From the NCBI GenBank assembly GCA_028280735.1, contig JANQLH010000097.1, positions 1-54,431 of the forward strand: a stretch of 54,431 nucleotides of DNA. Reading direction: 5' to 3'. Shown here one piece after another: positions 14,491 through 22,648 of the stretch; position 1 is the stretch's first letter; every line of letters begins with the position of its first letter. The notes below the pieces were generated by a model. It saw only the letters and a list, made by a program, of their open reading frames with translations. It was not told where the DNA came from and did not search any database. Position numbers and translations under genes: made by a program. This stretch comes from SAR324 cluster bacterium (lineage in GTDB: Bacteria; SAR324; XYD2-FULL-50-16).

Positions 14491-15468
14491 ATGAATAAAT
14501 CAAAATGGATGTATCCTATTATTACATTGATTTCATCTATCATTGCCCTCTTTCTTTCGCTTGTGCTGTATATTTATTGGTACTTGGAGGTCAGTGAAGG
14601 TCTCAGGGCCGTGATCAAACGATTTAATATTGATGCTAAGCAGGCTTTGGAACCCCAAACCTGGGTTGTGATCATGGTATTGTCTATTCTGGTGGGATTT
14701 ATTCTGATTTGTATCTTCATGATCTTTGTCTACAACCAGAAAATCATGCAGCTCTATAGACTACAAAACAATTTCATTAATAATTTCACACACGAACTAA
14801 AAACACCTGTTACATCATTGAAGTTATACCTTGAGACCTTTGTCAAATACGAGCTACCAAGATCAGACCAGCTTAAGTACATCGATTTTATGATTCAGGA
14901 TGCCGAACGGCTGTCTGACAATGTCAGTCAAATCCTGAATTTGGCCCGTATTGAAAGTAGTGCTTATTCCAGTGAGAAAGCAATTATCGAGCTGGTCACG
15001 GCCACTAATGATTTTTTGAATGAGAACGGACATTTGTTTGCCGAAAGTGAAATCACAGTAGAAAACCAGGATAATAGCGATTTCATGTTTAATATTAATC
15101 TACCTTTGTATGAAATGTTCTTGATGAACATTATTACAAATGCCATTACCTACAACGATTCGGATAAACCTAAAATTGACATTGTTTTTCAACGACAAAA
15201 AAACAATATCCATATACGTTTCCTGGATAATGGAATCGGTATTGAGAAGTCCGAACTAAAAAAAATATTCAGAAAGTTTTACCAGGTTGGAACTTCAGAT
15301 GACATGTCGGCAAAAGGAAGCGGGCTAGGGTTGTATGTGGCTGAAAATATAGCTAAAATTTATAGTGGCAAGCTAAAAGTTGAAAGCAAGGGAAAGGGCA
15401 AAGGATCTCAATTCACATTGATCTTGCCCTGTGATCCAATTTTAAACCAGCGTACTCAGTCTGACTAA
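14491..15468 (+). CDS. Membrane sensor histidine kinase
   Basis: This 325-aa kinase has two transmembrane helices (about 8-31 and 58-81) enclosing a short periplasmic loop of some 25 residues. The phosphoacceptor is H101 in NNFTHELKTPVTSL. N-, G1- and G2-box motifs follow: IITNAITYND near 215, FLDNGIGIEKSEL near 248 and GSGLGLYVAENIAKIY near 280. The very short sensor loop suggests sensing within the membrane or through a partner. It precedes the response-regulator gene by 5 bp. A ribosome site AAAGGAG lies at 14474-14480. Confidence 0.95.
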   Translation: MNKSKWMYPIITLISSIIALFLSLVLYIYWYLEVSEGLRAVIKRFNIDAKQALEPQTWVVIMVLSILVGFILICIFMIFVYNQKIMQLYRLQNNFINNFTHELKTPVTSLKLYLETFVKYELPRSDQLKYIDFMIQDAERLSDNVSQILNLARIESSAYSSEKAIIELVTATNDFLNENGHLFAESEITVENQDNSDFMFNINLPLYEMFLMNIITNAITYNDSDKPKIDIVFQRQKNNIHIRFLDNGIGIEKSELKKIFRKFYQVGTSDDMSAKGSGLGLYVAENIAKIYSGKLKVESKGKGKGSQFTLILPCDPILNQRTQSD

Positions 15469-15473
15469 AAATC

Positions 15474-16205
15474 ATGGAAAAGCAGGAACATAAAAGGGTG
15501 TTGATTGTAGAAGATGATGATCACATAGCTGAAGGACTTCGTCTTAATCTGACTATGCAAGGGTATGAAGTTAAAATTGCCGTTGATGGCATGACGGCCT
15601 TGCAAGATTGGAAGGAATGGAAACCTGACTTAATTGTACTGGATATCATGTTGCCGGAGATAGATGGGGTTTCCGTTTTGCGCAGCATTCGTTTGGAAGA
15701 TGAAAAGATCCCGATTTTGGTGCTTTCCGCGAAAAGTTCACCAGATGATAAAGTCGAGTGTTTCCATTATGGGGTGGATGATTATCTGCAAAAACCATTT
15801 GATTTGAACGAGTTCCTGTTAAGAGTAGAAAGGTTGTTGACTCGATTTTCCTGGAACCAGGACAATAGCCTGATTCAAGAATCGGAGATTCTACCCAGTG
15901 CGGAACAGTACAACTTTGGAACAAACAGGATCGATTTTGCCCAGGCAGTGGCACATTGCAAGTCAGGTAAGGTTAATTTAACAGAGCAGGAAATTAAATT
16001 ACTCAAACTGTTTATCAACAACAAGGGAAAGCCCTTATCCAGGGCAAAACTGCTTGAAATAGGCTGGGGGTATACCAGGAGAACCGAGACTAGAACCATC
16101 GATAATTTTATCGTACGATTTCGGAAATATTTTGAAGACAACCCAAAAAAACCTCAATATTTCAAAAGCCTAAGAGCGATAGGTTACTTGTTTGATCATG
16201 AGTGA
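15474..16205 (+). CDS. OmpR-family response regulator
   Basis: This 243-aa regulator has a receiver domain with acidic residues in VEDDDH (about 12-17), phosphoacceptor D57 in LIVLDIMLPE, and K107 in DDYLQKPFDL. A winged-helix DNA-binding domain follows, with LTEQEIKLLKLFINNKG and a C-terminal TRTIDNFIVRFRKYFE recognition region. It is the partner of the histidine kinase just upstream. It ends only 2 bp from the end of the convergent 1650-aa PPDK-like gene. Target genes are not identifiable here. Confidence 0.96.
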   Translation: MEKQEHKRVLIVEDDDHIAEGLRLNLTMQGYEVKIAVDGMTALQDWKEWKPDLIVLDIMLPEIDGVSVLRSIRLEDEKIPILVLSAKSSPDDKVECFHYGVDDYLQKPFDLNEFLLRVERLLTRFSWNQDNSLIQESEILPSAEQYNFGTNRIDFAQAVAHCKSGKVNLTEQEIKLLKLFINNKGKPLSRAKLLEIGWGYTRRTETRTIDNFIVRFRKYFEDNPKKPQYFKSLRAIGYLFDHE

Positions 16206-16207
16206 AA

Positions 16208-19200
16208 TTATCGTTTTTTCAATACCCGGGTTAATGGTAAGCAACCCTCATAGATATTACCGCTGTACGGTGAAACCGATTTGGGATTGCCAATGATGGT
16301 GAAAAGATCCGGATGATTGGAGTTCCCAAGATTGATTTTACGATCACCAATGAACCAGTCATTGTCTTTTAACGTCACCGAGGCTTCACAAACAAACATC
16401 TTCCCATCCCTTTTTGCTGCTATTGACGCATGACTGGACTTGCCAATTTTGGATGTAATCACACCATCGACACCTTCAATATTCATCTTTAAAGCTTCTT
16501 CCGGAGTAACATATTTCATTAAAAGAAATATTCCCGGACCATGAAATTCGTTTTTTAAACCCAGTTTGTTGCGTACATCCTTTACAGTGTCCCGCAGCTC
16601 ATAATATTCCTGGGAAATACCATCCAGAAGCACACCGTGTTGCACGCCACCATTAACTCCTTTTCCGGTTGCAACCGGGGCAATATCTGTCGGCGTGAGT
16701 CTGTAATCCTCGCTTTCTCCTCTTGTCCCCAGGGGCATTTGCCTTTCCTGTACTACAAACAACTCCATGTGTTCTGTTTCGGGATCAAACTCCCCGACCA
16801 TTTCCACATCTACATTAATGTATCCTTTATTGATTTTAATTTGCTCCAAAAGCTCCGCAATTTGTGCATACAGCCCGGGTTCCTTCGTTTCCAGGTTTTC
16901 CAAATGTTCGCCTCCGGAGGCCAGTCCCGACGCAATATCTTCTCCGGGTCTGCCGAAAAGCAAATCTCCGTGGGGTTTGTCTATCTTTCCTTGGGGATCT
17001 CCTGAAAACAATATGGCACTGAACGACCGGGAGTTTTTATCAGCCTGCTTCATTTCCATTAGCGTTACCGGTGTTTTCCAATCCGGTGATATGTCCAGGA
17101 AATTTCTTAACCTTTCCGCAGCAGAACTATTCCAGGAATTCCAAATACCAAGGGTTGAAATTGCGAGGAGTTCCAGTGGATCATTCCAATCAATGTTAAC
17201 CTGTTTTTCTTCAGGAAGTTCTTTGTTTCTTGACTCGACCAAGTGCTTAAAGCCATTGATTATATTAATTATTTGATCATCACTTAGATCTTCCCATTTG
17301 ATTTTCCTGGTAAACTTGTTTTCAATTTCTTGTTTGCTCTCATCGACGATTTTGGAAAAAGAAGTTTCATTGATACCGAAAACCACATTGCCGAACGTGC
17401 TGATGAACATACGGTATGTGTTTAAGTCTAAGCGTTTGTTTTGAAAGTGGAAATTAGGATTCAATACATCCTTATAACCGATATTCAGAACCGTGCCGAG
17501 TATCCCCGGCATAGACCTGTAAGAACCGCTTCTGGCGGATAAAAACAATTGTGCGGGTGCGTGCCCGGTTTCAGGAAAGTCCTTTCTTGACGTTTCAATT
17601 ATTTTTTGTTGTTCATCATTCAGTTTACTGAAATTAAAATCAAACTTCTTTTTGGTTTTGTTTTCAAGCTCTAAGATTTGCCGGATTAAATGAGTTTTAT
17701 AATCCGTATGGCAATTATTGGAGATGAACTCCGGATGATCGCTGTAATAATTGACCGGAATTGTTACCAGTGCAGGGACATTGAACCCGTCTTGAGCAAG
17801 GGTTTGCAATGCATATGATTTATAGCCGTAATAAACCGGCGATAGCCTGTTGGGCGGCCTTTCGTCAGAATTAAATATTAGCTTTGACGGATCCTTTTTC
17901 TTCAGTTGGGAAGTGAATCGTATCATTTTACCCAAGTGATCCTCCAATAGATGAATCGCTTGGATTCCCCCGATAATATTACCTAACACAGTTTCCTGTA
18001 CCAGCGGATAAAGCAGTTCCTCATTGCTGACAGTTAATTTTTCCAATCCAAAGTCCAGATTTTCTCTGCCCAGTGCCTTGGTAATCTGAGCCGGAAAATG
18101 TCCAAAAGTGTTGGCTATAAAAGAGTCTATATGCGACAGTTCACGATGGTATAAAATCCCCAAAATATCATGCAATTGAGATATGGTTAACTGATCTTTC
18201 CCAAGTACGTCGATAGTATCCAAAAAGTATTTTGATGGCGACAATCCTTCACTAACCAGGTGAACCATGATTCGTTGCAGACAATCCATCAACGCTCTTA
18301 AGTGTAACAGACTGTCATTGCTGATGTGATCGATTTGAGGTCGGTTCCCGGAAAGTTGTTCAACATAATCCTCCAAAAGCATCCTTTCCAATTCAGCCAA
18401 TTTACGATCTGTGTTGTAAGCCTCAAATTTGGTTTCCTTGTAATAAGGCCAGAAACCGAAGAAATCAAAATTCCAATCGCCTTGTATGACGTGCCTTTTC
18501 AAGAAGATGTGTTGGTAGGGTTCCAAATTTTGGTCATATCGATTTATTAAATTCTCAAATTTTTCCCTCCTGTCCCTGGTAATATCCAGTCTTTGTTGTG
18601 TTGTGGCTTTTGCAAACACTTCTTGTTCATCATCCGAAAGATATTCTTGTATAAAGCTGTTGTTAATTCGCTGAGTCCAATAATTGGAAAGGGCAAACGC
18701 AAGCTTGACCAGCCCGATAATATCATTTACGGAATCGGCGTCGATACCCGGTAAATCCCTTACTGTCTTTGTAAACTCCTGGTTTTCCGCGATTGTGCAC
18801 CAATCTTCATTTTGGTAACATTTTTTAAATGCCGAAAGATGCCTGCCTAAGGTCTCAATTTTGGATCGGTAATGTGAAAAATACTCTTCCATATCAGGGA
18901 TGGCCTCATCTCCAATTCCTTTCATCAACCGCTTCAAGTTAAATAAGACCTCATCCGGGTTTTTTGTAGACAATCCTTCCAGAATCTCCATGCAGAAATC
19001 CAAATCCAATTTTGAGGGGGCCCGGTGAATTTTAATGCGGTGATAATGAAACAGGACATTTTTTCGTTTGTAAAACTCGTCTAAATCAGCAATGGTTTTT
19101 CGGATAATTGTTTCATGCTGACTTGAGAAGTCTTTGATATATGGGATGCATGAGATTAGTTGGTGAGCCAGGTACATCTGGTAGCCCAACTCAGGAGTTT

Positions 19201-21160
19201 TTTGATGTCCGGCCAGGGAGTTCAAGTAGAGACTTATATCGGTTTCCACAAAAGCATCTTTCGGGATATTTATGAACTTCATATGAAGAACGGTTATCAG
19301 GAAAACGACGATGGGGTGAAAAATATGTGGGTCCTGAAGATCTGATTCCTGACTGGATACCGGAGTTGATTCCAAACTTTGAGTATATCCACGCTGCTCA
19401 CTGAAACCATCCCTGATTGTGATACCGTTTCTTAATTGTAACTGGCGTTGGGCGACAACCTGGAAAAGCGAGCTGAACAACCTGTAATCAAACGAAATTT
19501 TTGAATTTAACAAAAAGGTCATGAGTTTTTGAATCAGCTCCTTTGCGTCCGGCTCTTTGGAAAGGAGAGTGACAATGTCCTGCATCGGAATGACCCGATC
19601 GATGGTTGTTACCCTGGTTACCGGGGATTCTGTTGCAGCTTTGATGATAAATGTAAACAGACGATCCTCACCAATGAAATTAGTTAGTGCCCAGGAGACT
19701 ATATAATTAAGGCCCCACATTCTGATCAGGGATACGAATCCGTCTTTGGTTTTTGTGTTGATGAACTGCTTGAAGTCATCAAGTTTGTTGTTGATAAAAT
19801 GGAAGTGATTCAAAAATTCCTCTGAATTGGGCTTTGCAGCTTTCTCCAACTTATTTCCGGGCGGTTTCATATAGGCCGAACGGATGAAGTTCCCGAGCAA
19901 GATACCGTCTGGTTGGGTGGTGGTATCCAACTTCCTTAGAGAGTCCCGAAATGACTCTCCAAATGTTTTTACCAGTTTTTCCGCCTGGATGTGCTCAAAT
20001 ATGGAATCATGTTTGTCCACTATTTGCAGCATTTGGTCATAATCGTCCGCTTTTCCCAGGGCTTTAAAAAAAAAGTCCTGCACTTGGTCGGAGTTTTTCC
20101 TTAGAGCTTGAAATGCCCCGTCTCTAACCATTTTATCTACAAACCTGGTATGATAACCCAGGATCAGGTTGATTGATTCTTTGGTGCGAAGTCCTGTTTC
20201 TCCTAGCAATTTTATACTGTACAAATGAACTGCCTCCGGAACAATCTCCTTATCAAGTGATGGAAGCTCGGGGAGTTGGTGGGTATTTTGCAGAATGGCT
20301 GTCAATACTTCTGAGGTAGAAGGAAAAGTATCTTGGATCCAGAGAAGTAACTCCTTTTTTAATTTTGCAAAATCGCCATAAAGATAGTTGTCCCCTCCTG
20401 AATACCCTGATTCCTTTAGCCCATCCCAAAATAGTTGGAGATCGCCGGCATCCAAAATTGACTTAAAATCATCCTTTCTAACGGTTTTAAGAGCTTTATT
20501 AATTTCAGTAATTTGCTGGAGAATAGAAACAAAGGTGTTGTTGCTCATTAACAAATGGCGGATTTGCTCATTAGTCTTTTTGATTTGTATCGTTAAAGCA
20601 TTGAATTTTGGAGATTCTATTCCGTCCTTACGCGCATTAAAATCCTTCAATTGATCTAAGAGATCCCTTCCTAGTTGCTCAAATTCTTCGTCTAAAGCAG
20701 GAGACAGGATGTTTTTGACATGATTAAAAACTTTTTGATAAGCATCCGGACCGGATACAGGAATACTTTTGAAAAGCTCAATCAATACGCTGAGGCTGCG
20801 CATGATATCTTGATAATTATCTGCTATCGGGCGGTTCGGGAATAGTTTTAGATTTTCTTCTATTTCCTGGTCCAATAACCATATGACAGCCGAATCCAGA
20901 TCATGATCCAGGATCTTTTCGCAAAACTCACTGTAGAATTCCGAGAGACGATTCTCGTATTTTGTTTGTTTTAATGCCTTTTGTTTTGATAATCCGTAAA
21001 AATTGACAAATTTGCTGTGAAACTGACGTATAAAGTCTTCCAGCGCCTCAAACGTTTTGATCCGGTCTTTATCTTCTCGTTTGTCCAACCCGGCATCTGC
21101 AATGGTATAAAAGGATTTGAGAGCGAATTCCCGGCAAAACTTTTCTATCTTTGTCGACAT
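16208..21160 (-). CDS. Giant PPDK-related protein: unknown N-terminus, PPDK-type ATP-binding and phosphohistidine domains, no PEP barrel
   Basis: This 1650-aa protein has about 1,100 N-terminal residues that I cannot assign; they look helical and cytoplasmic. A pyruvate-phosphate-dikinase ATP-grasp region begins near 1110 (YYGYKSYALQTLAQDGFNVP), with LFLSARSGSYRSMPGILGTV near 1205. The segment ISTFGNVVFGI matches the PPDK y-GDVV-G block, and ELFVVQERQMPLG corresponds to the end of the ATP domain. A swivelling domain follows with H1577 in ITSKIGKSSHASIAAKRDG, the expected phosphohistidine. The protein ends about 73 residues later, without the PEP/pyruvate TIM barrel of PPDK and PEP synthase. 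It may therefore phosphorylate another acceptor, in the manner of rifampin phosphotransferase or glucan water dikinase. The ATG at 21160 has AGGAG upstream. Confidence 0.85.
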   Translation of the reverse strand: MSTKIEKFCREFALKSFYTIADAGLDKREDKDRIKTFEALEDFIRQFHSKFVNFYGLSKQKALKQTKYENRLSEFYSEFCEKILDHDLDSAVIWLLDQEIEENLKLFPNRPIADNYQDIMRSLSVLIELFKSIPVSGPDAYQKVFNHVKNILSPALDEEFEQLGRDLLDQLKDFNARKDGIESPKFNALTIQIKKTNEQIRHLLMSNNTFVSILQQITEINKALKTVRKDDFKSILDAGDLQLFWDGLKESGYSGGDNYLYGDFAKLKKELLLWIQDTFPSTSEVLTAILQNTHQLPELPSLDKEIVPEAVHLYSIKLLGETGLRTKESINLILGYHTRFVDKMVRDGAFQALRKNSDQVQDFFFKALGKADDYDQMLQIVDKHDSIFEHIQAEKLVKTFGESFRDSLRKLDTTTQPDGILLGNFIRSAYMKPPGNKLEKAAKPNSEEFLNHFHFINNKLDDFKQFINTKTKDGFVSLIRMWGLNYIVSWALTNFIGEDRLFTFIIKAATESPVTRVTTIDRVIPMQDIVTLLSKEPDAKELIQKLMTFLLNSKISFDYRLFSSLFQVVAQRQLQLRNGITIRDGFSEQRGYTQSLESTPVSSQESDLQDPHIFHPIVVFLITVLHMKFINIPKDAFVETDISLYLNSLAGHQKTPELGYQMYLAHQLISCIPYIKDFSSQHETIIRKTIADLDEFYKRKNVLFHYHRIKIHRAPSKLDLDFCMEILEGLSTKNPDEVLFNLKRLMKGIGDEAIPDMEEYFSHYRSKIETLGRHLSAFKKCYQNEDWCTIAENQEFTKTVRDLPGIDADSVNDIIGLVKLAFALSNYWTQRINNSFIQEYLSDDEQEVFAKATTQQRLDITRDRREKFENLINRYDQNLEPYQHIFLKRHVIQGDWNFDFFGFWPYYKETKFEAYNTDRKLAELERMLLEDYVEQLSGNRPQIDHISNDSLLHLRALMDCLQRIMVHLVSEGLSPSKYFLDTIDVLGKDQLTISQLHDILGILYHRELSHIDSFIANTFGHFPAQITKALGRENLDFGLEKLTVSNEELLYPLVQETVLGNIIGGIQAIHLLEDHLGKMIRFTSQLKKKDPSKLIFNSDERPPNRLSPVYYGYKSYALQTLAQDGFNVPALVTIPVNYYSDHPEFISNNCHTDYKTHLIRQILELENKTKKKFDFNFSKLNDEQQKIIETSRKDFPETGHAPAQLFLSARSGSYRSMPGILGTVLNIGYKDVLNPNFHFQNKRLDLNTYRMFISTFGNVVFGINETSFSKIVDESKQEIENKFTRKIKWEDLSDDQIINIINGFKHLVESRNKELPEEKQVNIDWNDPLELLAISTLGIWNSWNSSAAERLRNFLDISPDWKTPVTLMEMKQADKNSRSFSAILFSGDPQGKIDKPHGDLLFGRPGEDIASGLASGGEHLENLETKEPGLYAQIAELLEQIKINKGYINVDVEMVGEFDPETEHMELFVVQERQMPLGTRGESEDYRLTPTDIAPVATGKGVNGGVQHGVLLDGISQEYYELRDTVKDVRNKLGLKNEFHGPGIFLLMKYVTPEEALKMNIEGVDGVITSKIGKSSHASIAAKRDGKMFVCEASVTLKDNDWFIGDRKINLGNSNHPDLFTIIGNPKSVSPYSGNIYEGCLPLTRVLKKR

Positions 21161-21319
21161 GAAGTCTCCTGATCATTCCATACTATAGTGAGTTCCGATG
21201 ATATCATTGTTTGCGAGTATACACCTCGGCAATAACTTTTGAAATATCAAGTTTGAGTTTATAACAACCATTGGATAATGAGGAAGACGTTCAACCTTGT
21301 TGCCATGGTTTGCTTATAA

Positions 21320-21323: not shown

Positions 21324-22648
21324 GGGCACCTTGATTAATTAAATCTGGCGTTGGCCAGCGTGTCATGACTTTGAATACCCATTGCAGTAACAAAGAGTTG
21401 GTCTAGTATTTATAGCATTGGTGATTAAAAACTCCGATTATTAGAGGATATCACCCTCATATTCGGTTTTTAAAGACTCTTATTATACACTACAACTCTT
21501 TATTCTGCTTATCTGGATGAAACGGCAAATATTATATACAAGGTTCATCAGGCCGATTTGATAGATGGCTCTTTTCTTTCCAATAGTGCGAATGAAGATT
21601 GATGACATGGAGTTCTCTATAAAACCAAAAACATGCTCGACACGGGACCGAATCTTGGATTTTTGTCGGTTGTTTTTTATCTGGGTTTCTGTCAATGGGC
21701 GGTTTTTATAACCTTTTTCATTGATATGATCGGCTATGGATTTACTTTTTAACACCGCTTTGATTTCTGGCGTTTGGTAAGCACTATCCGCCCAGATATC
21801 ATCTGTTGTTGCGTTTTTTATGAGAGTCTCAGCTGCTTGACTATCATGAACATTGGCCGTTGTGACCTCATAATCACGAATGAGTTTGTATTTGTTATCT
21901 ATCAAGACATGATCCTTATAACCGTAGTAGTTCTCATGATTCTTTTTTGTCCAACGAGCATCGACGTCTTTTTGCGCCAGTTTGTGAGGATTTTCTTTGA
22001 AGCTCTCAGGGGTATCTCCAGCTTTGATCTGTTTGTTTTCTTCCCTGGTGTTTCTTTGTTTGGGAACTTCGACAATAGTGGCATCAATGATTGATCCATC
22101 GGTTGCTATGAAACCCTGTTCTGTTAAGAACGATTCGAATCGTTCAAACATTTGCACAACAAGTCCCAACTGAGCCAATCGGTTTTCCCGCTTCCAAATA
22201 GTAGTGAAGTCTGGAGCTGTATCATTGGGATTTAGACCGATAAAACGCTGAAAGCTATGTCGGTCAGTTAGTTGAAACTCTGTCTGTTCATTGGAAAGGT
22301 TGAATAGCTTTTTGAGGAAGATACATTTGATGATAATCAAAGGTTTAATGGGTTTACGACCAGCATTTTTAGGATTTTTCTCTGTCGGTCCATCTTGAAC
22401 TGGAAATGCTTGTTGGTAGATATCTTCAAACATAGAAAAATCGATTAAGTTGTTGATTTCTTCTAAAGGATCTCCCAGTTGGGATAGTTTTTCATATTTG
22501 TCTGCGATGTCGAAAAATCCAAGCTGCATAGTCACCTTTGTATCATTCTGTTTTTATTCGGTTTGTGATATATTATCATAACAATTCCGGCACGTTGAGC
22601 CAAGTATTTTTCTCATTATTTCAGTATATTAAAATAATCAAAGTGCCT
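21324..22648 (-). mobile_element. Complete IS5-group insertion sequence (1325 bp)
   Basis: The element carries one transposase gene and has imperfect terminal inverted repeats. The left end is GGGCACCTTGATTAATT (21324-21340). The complement of the right end (22632-22648) reads AGGCACTTTGATTATTT, 14 of 17 identical. TTAA is duplicated on both sides. It lies in the space upstream of the giant PPDK-like gene, about 160 bp from that gene's start, and upstream of the amino acid ABC operon. The intact frame and clean target duplication suggest a fairly recent insertion. Confidence 0.85.
21483..22529 (-). CDS. IS5-group DDE transposase
   Basis: This 348-aa transposase has the IS5-group DDE triad. 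D149 is in DGSIIDATIVEVP, D248 in DDIWADSAYQTP, and E298 in RSRVEHVFGFIE, with the usual R and K/E spacing of the YREK-type region. The N-terminal part, with KPLIIIKCIFLKKLFNLSNE, matches the family's DUF772-like helical domain. The ATG at 22529 follows AAAGG; a GTG six bases upstream is also in frame. No frameshift or premature stop is present, so the enzyme should be functional. Confidence 0.93.
   Translation of the reverse strand: MQLGFFDIADKYEKLSQLGDPLEEINNLIDFSMFEDIYQQAFPVQDGPTEKNPKNAGRKPIKPLIIIKCIFLKKLFNLSNEQTEFQLTDRHSFQRFIGLNPNDTAPDFTTIWKRENRLAQLGLVVQMFERFESFLTEQGFIATDGSIIDATIVEVPKQRNTREENKQIKAGDTPESFKENPHKLAQKDVDARWTKKNHENYYGYKDHVLIDNKYKLIRDYEVTTANVHDSQAAETLIKNATTDDIWADSAYQTPEIKAVLKSKSIADHINEKGYKNRPLTETQIKNNRQKSKIRSRVEHVFGFIENSMSSIFIRTIGKKRAIYQIGLMNLVYNICRFIQISRIKSCSV

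Follow-up and report, generated by a model that had tools for sequence, protein, structure and literature searches.

A PPDK-derived kinase of 1650 residues in SAR324 bacteria, with a large N-terminal region and no PEP barrel

The window analysed here, the whole of a 54,431-nucleotide stretch of DNA from a SAR324 cluster bacterium (contig JANQLH010000097.1), carries on its reverse strand (16208..21160) a complete gene for a protein of 1650 amino acids, in which a kinase module derived from pyruvate phosphate dikinase (PPDK) is preceded by a very large N-terminal region. With the pyruvate-binding part of PPDK gone and a front of about 1,100 residues fused to what remains, the enzyme probably phosphorylates something other than pyruvate. 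We lean towards reading it as a PPDK-type phosphohistidine dikinase that makes no PEP and in which the N-terminal region binds the acceptor or gives it a docking site. The gene is a single open reading frame, from an ATG at 21160 to a stop at 16208, as in the preliminary description of this DNA. A Shine-Dalgarno-like AGGAGA, read from the sequence, lies 4 nt 5' of the ATG (21165..21170, same strand). That the gene is complete is indicated by full-length homologues and by purifying selection.

The homologues are few. Full-length versions at 54-62% identity are carried by four further SAR324 genomes, two belonging to the window's genus and two to another in the same family, and a sixth, at about 41% identity, was found in one genome of a different phylum (G310). 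A profile of the N-terminal region matched 6 of the 383 genomes of the main sample. Around the distant carrier it matched only G310, already known, and in a further phylum it matched none of 247 genomes. Among viral contigs no relative was confirmed by tblastn, and among the matches listed from plasmids and phages none spans most of the query, only the C-terminal part being matched. In a tree of the ATP and His modules, the six family members form one clade (support 100/100), whose branch is very long and separate from those of canonical PPDKs and of other barrel-less PPDK kinases. The plasmid-borne barrel-less kinases of Methylocella, Aquabacterium, Rhodococcus and Rhizobium fall among the rest, outside the clade of six. 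The tree is rooted at its midpoint and long branches meet in it, so the deep branch order is not asserted. The tree also contains, on a very long branch, a gene of Vibrio phage Ares1 (L072 1926-4001) annotated as pyruvate phosphate dikinase; its 691-residue product has PPDK_N and PEP-utilizers domains and no match to PEP-utilizers_C.

The kinase module occupies residues ~1106-1650. PPDK-type ATP-binding and phosphohistidine domains had been placed in the last third of the protein, and this part indeed proves to be colinear with PPDK, the comparison of the family profile with that enzyme giving a probability of 100 over 450 columns. The ATP-grasp domain (residues ~1106-1480; 16721..17845, reverse strand) is matched by TIGR01828 at 118.8 bits (E 2e-34), short of that family's cut-off of 843 bits, and by PPDK chains in the PDB with an E value of 1e-21 from the single sequence and 1e-37 from the family profile. 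Adjacent to it in the same chain is the swivelling phosphohistidine domain (residues ~1481-1650; 16211..16720, reverse strand), which matches PEP-utilizers in a Pfam scan (E 2e-4) and exceeds the cut-off of that family in a search of the six carrier genomes. The order ATP-grasp then His, evident from TIGR01828 and from the alignment, is the one first described, which differs from that of glucan water dikinases.

In the alignment K1114, R1210, E1407, D1451, E1453, Q1471 and R1473 correspond to K22, R92, E279, D321, E323, Q335 and R337 of PPDK (numbered as in the Clostridium symbiosum enzyme), and all are the same residue as in PPDK and invariant in the six homologues. The position of T253 is taken by S1381, a Ser in all six. 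The predicted phosphorylated His is H1577 (16430..16432, reverse strand), within the motif IGKSSHAS; the choice of this residue as the catalytic one was borne out, as its counterpart in PPDK is the catalytic His and it is likewise invariant in the six. The retention of catalytic residues in six homologues from two phyla speaks for a dikinase that makes no PEP.

The N-terminal region is about twice the size of the kinase part and, as judged from sequence, is unlike anything in the libraries searched. No match to residues 1-1100 was found in Pfam, NCBIfam, PADLOC (including its defence families) or the PDB sequences, in keeping with the original remark that these residues belong to no recognised family, nor was anything alike found in any part of PPDK. 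The region is not uniform. Residues 1-540 (19541..21160, reverse strand), also without library match, evolve faster, according to the identities of successive blocks. Residues 541-750 (18911..19540, reverse strand) form the core, with the highest conservation: across 551-750, about 21-22 residues in every 50 are invariant in the six homologues, the distant phylum included. Examples of motifs from the core are LLNSKISF, AFVETDIS, IRKTIADLD and KIHRxPS. A second conserved block was recognised in the alignment at residues 877-1050 (18011..18532, reverse strand), with the motifs IFLKRHV...DWxF..FGFWP.Y.E.KFE.YN and DQLTxSQL.DI. Both blocks are conserved to the same degree as the kinase, even when the distant phylum is considered. 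Similarly, where synonymous sites have reached saturation, pN is 0.12-0.24 for residues 551-1100 and 0.14-0.24 for the kinase module. Since over the whole length of the gene pN is 0.12-0.34 while pS is saturated at 0.73-0.87, the gene is under purifying selection.

Predictions of structure were of too low a quality to be relied on. AlphaFold2 models, made from an alignment of just the window and two further loci, reached a pLDDT of 41 for residues 1-1113 and 43 for residues 760-1650. The second model could not reproduce even the known ATP domain, so the failure of the N-terminal model is no sign of novelty. Helix and strand propensities did not distinguish between the N-terminus and the alpha/beta barrel of PPDK.

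How might such an enzyme work? According to the reading that we prefer, ATP, with phosphate or water as co-substrate, would phosphorylate H1577 with the release of AMP. The His domain would then swivel to the N-terminal region and the phosphate would pass to an acceptor held there, perhaps a small molecule, a polymer or a protein. The part given to the N-terminal region is suggested by the constraint upon it and by the example of RPH and HpeHI, where a domain that is not a barrel plays this role. The idea that this region binds the acceptor had been put forward at the outset as plausible, and so it may be, its second half being conserved like the catalytic module. Against this, the conserved core of the N-terminal region could serve for docking or regulation and not as an acceptor site, and the neighbours of the gene differ among lineages, so no operon partner names the acceptor. 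It is possible, although we would not count on it, that the N-terminal region (core at ~541-750 and ~877-1050) constitutes a new acceptor-binding fold, with an acceptor new among dikinases.

The genes nearby bear on a second explanation, in which the protein, like VadK, is a phosphohistidine kinase with a regulatory role: having phosphorylated its own His, it would control receivers or partner enzymes, either through contact or by passing on the phosphate. Its N-terminal region would then sense a signal or dock partners instead of binding a substrate. VadK is itself a PPDK-derived ATP and His module without a barrel that autophosphorylates and works as a regulator (PMC13400623), a precedent for this explanation. 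Moreover, in both SAR324 genera a histidine kinase/receiver gene stands next to the giant gene. In the window, a histidine kinase and response regulator pair (14491-16205, forward strand) is convergent with the giant gene and ends 2 nt from its stop codon, an arrangement syntenic in three genomes of the window's genus. In the other SAR324 genus, the neighbour is a cNMP-PAS-histidine kinase-receiver gene, upstream and on the same strand. However, these neighbouring kinases are not orthologous and their orientations differ, and none is adjacent to the gene in the third lineage. Nor does the tree place the clade of six close to the barrel-less kinase of Rhodococcus, which of the kinases sampled is nearest to VadK. 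We consider a VadK-like regulator unlikely, if a serious contender.

The remaining neighbours are no more constant, and a comparison found no single partner gene common to the two SAR324 genera and the third lineage. Across the intergenic stretch from the giant gene lies an amino-acid ABC transporter in the window and in one further genome of the genus; the third genome has only fragments of the gene for the transporter's ATPase there. A transposase gene (DDE_Tnp_1/DUF772; 21483-22535, reverse strand) stands 323 bp upstream of the start of the giant gene, which it separates from the ABC transporter genes. No matching open reading frame is present in the syntenic regions of two genomes of the same genus, so it is probably a recent insertion. 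In the second SAR324 genus, a protein of 1117-1134 amino acids is encoded convergently with the kinase gene (L035 6495-9848, forward strand; L034 9170-12574, reverse strand); the L035 copy, when scanned, had no match in Pfam.

The third lineage has surE, a glycosyltransferase gene and a phosphoglucomutase gene downstream of the kinase gene, the last two on its strand, and this recalls the glucan water dikinases. A bacterial counterpart of these enzymes, phosphorylating glycogen or another glucan, would be built of the same kinds of parts (a large N-terminal region, His and ATP domains, no barrel), and glycogen synthase and phosphorylase are found in most carrier genomes. In GWD and PWD, however, the His domain precedes the ATP domain, the reverse of the order here, and Pfam scans found no carbohydrate-binding module. 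One carrier of the window's genus, 93% complete, has neither glycogen phosphorylase nor a strong match to glycogen synthase, and the lack of the phosphorylase weakens the case for a role in glycogen metabolism; relatives without the giant gene also have glycogen genes. We regard a glucan dikinase as improbable.

It is more improbable still that the protein continues to act on pyruvate and PEP, through a barrel too divergent to be seen or through a partner subunit, even though its ATP-grasp domain resembles in sequence that of PPDK and not that of PEP synthase. In the alignment the protein ends just after SGNIYEGCLPL, where the His domain of PPDK ends, and since this stretch matches the last part of that domain, the PEP-making barrel is missing from the C-terminus, as had been noted in the preliminary description. 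A degenerate barrel in the N-terminal region, which would have contradicted that description, was not found: at the level of sequence profiles, the N-terminal profile, compared with 29 aligned PPDK barrels, gave a probability of 0.2, the positive control giving 100. A separate barrel subunit was also sought. A search with PEP-utilizers_C found no stand-alone PEP barrel in the six carrier genomes, every match lying in a frame of 546-1202 amino acids that also bears a PEP-utilizers His domain. From their sizes, these barrel-bearing frames look like PTS enzyme I, PtsP, PPDK and PEP synthase. Four of the six carriers have an additional PPDK-like frame (915-937 amino acids) with its own barrel, so PPDK activity that forms PEP does not have to come from the giant gene; the two carriers from the other SAR324 genus yielded no second PPDK-like frame. 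The distant carrier has an open frame of 1202 amino acids (G310:C1:21199-22620) with a His domain and a partial match to the PEP barrel.

That the gene is a decaying or non-functional fusion, as its rare and patchy distribution might suggest, is hardly credible and largely refuted by conservation, given an intact gene in six genomes of two phyla, the ATP-site residues kept and pN far below pS throughout.

The ATP and His domains of PPDK have been put to new use repeatedly, in antibiotic inactivation, aromatic catabolism, starch phosphorylation and metabolic regulation, and the giant kinase is a further case, set apart by a deep divergence from those compared here. If it is active, its substrate would represent a new phosphorylation in uncultured SAR324 bacteria, its N-terminal region a new protein family, and the release of AMP an enzymatic handle for finding the ligand. 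If the N-terminal region is indeed a new acceptor fold, it would provide a further, independent way to steer a swivelling phosphohistidine to its substrate, besides the PEP barrel, the acceptor domain of RPH/HpeH and the front part of GWD.

Among known systems, PPDK shares with the giant kinase the order ATP-grasp then His, the ATP-site residues (except for Ser in place of T253) and the catalytic His, but the giant kinase is without the C-terminal PEP/pyruvate barrel and has some 1,100 extra residues at its N-terminus. VadK/Rv1127c is similarly PPDK-derived and barrel-less, with ATP-grasp and His domains. VadK autophosphorylates on its His and has no large N-terminal region, its ATP-binding and kinase domains starting after 17 residues (PMC13400623). 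The truncated PPDKs of the VadK type (NCBIfam model PRK05878) stand alone at about 500 amino acids, against 1650 here, and the giant kinase scores 79 bits with that model, against a cut-off of 456. Two plasmids, of Methylocella tundrae and Aquabacterium olei, carry two-gene operons (L070 50-3518; L073 1972-5539) in which a protein of ~630-650 amino acids is followed directly by a barrel-less PPDK-type ATP and His kinase of ~530 amino acids, the kinase and its large partner thus being divided between two genes. The partner matches PhoU_div/DUF47 in Methylocella and is annotated "phosphate transport regulator" in Aquabacterium. Comparison found no homology between the N-terminal region and these DUF47 partner proteins, and the operon kinases sit on different branches of the tree from the giant kinase.

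RPH and HpeHI/CreHI/PpsAB also join an ATP-grasp to a swivelling His domain without a barrel and have a non-pyruvate acceptor on a different domain; RPH (PMC4844700) and HpeHI (PMC12167813) are active enzymes. Their acceptor domain is either placed between the ATP and His domains or carried by a second protein, neither of which is the case in the giant kinase, and their ATP-grasp is like that of PEP synthase, whereas that of the giant kinase is like that of PPDK; a search of the PDB found no match between RPH chains and the giant kinase. GWD and PWD resemble it in combining a large N-terminal region with His and ATP domains and no barrel, but they possess carbohydrate-binding modules; for GWD there is no high-resolution structure for comparison (PMC12892837). 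Barrel-less dikinases are thus already known in VadK, RPH, HpeHI and GWD, and the giant kinase is a variant of that kind.
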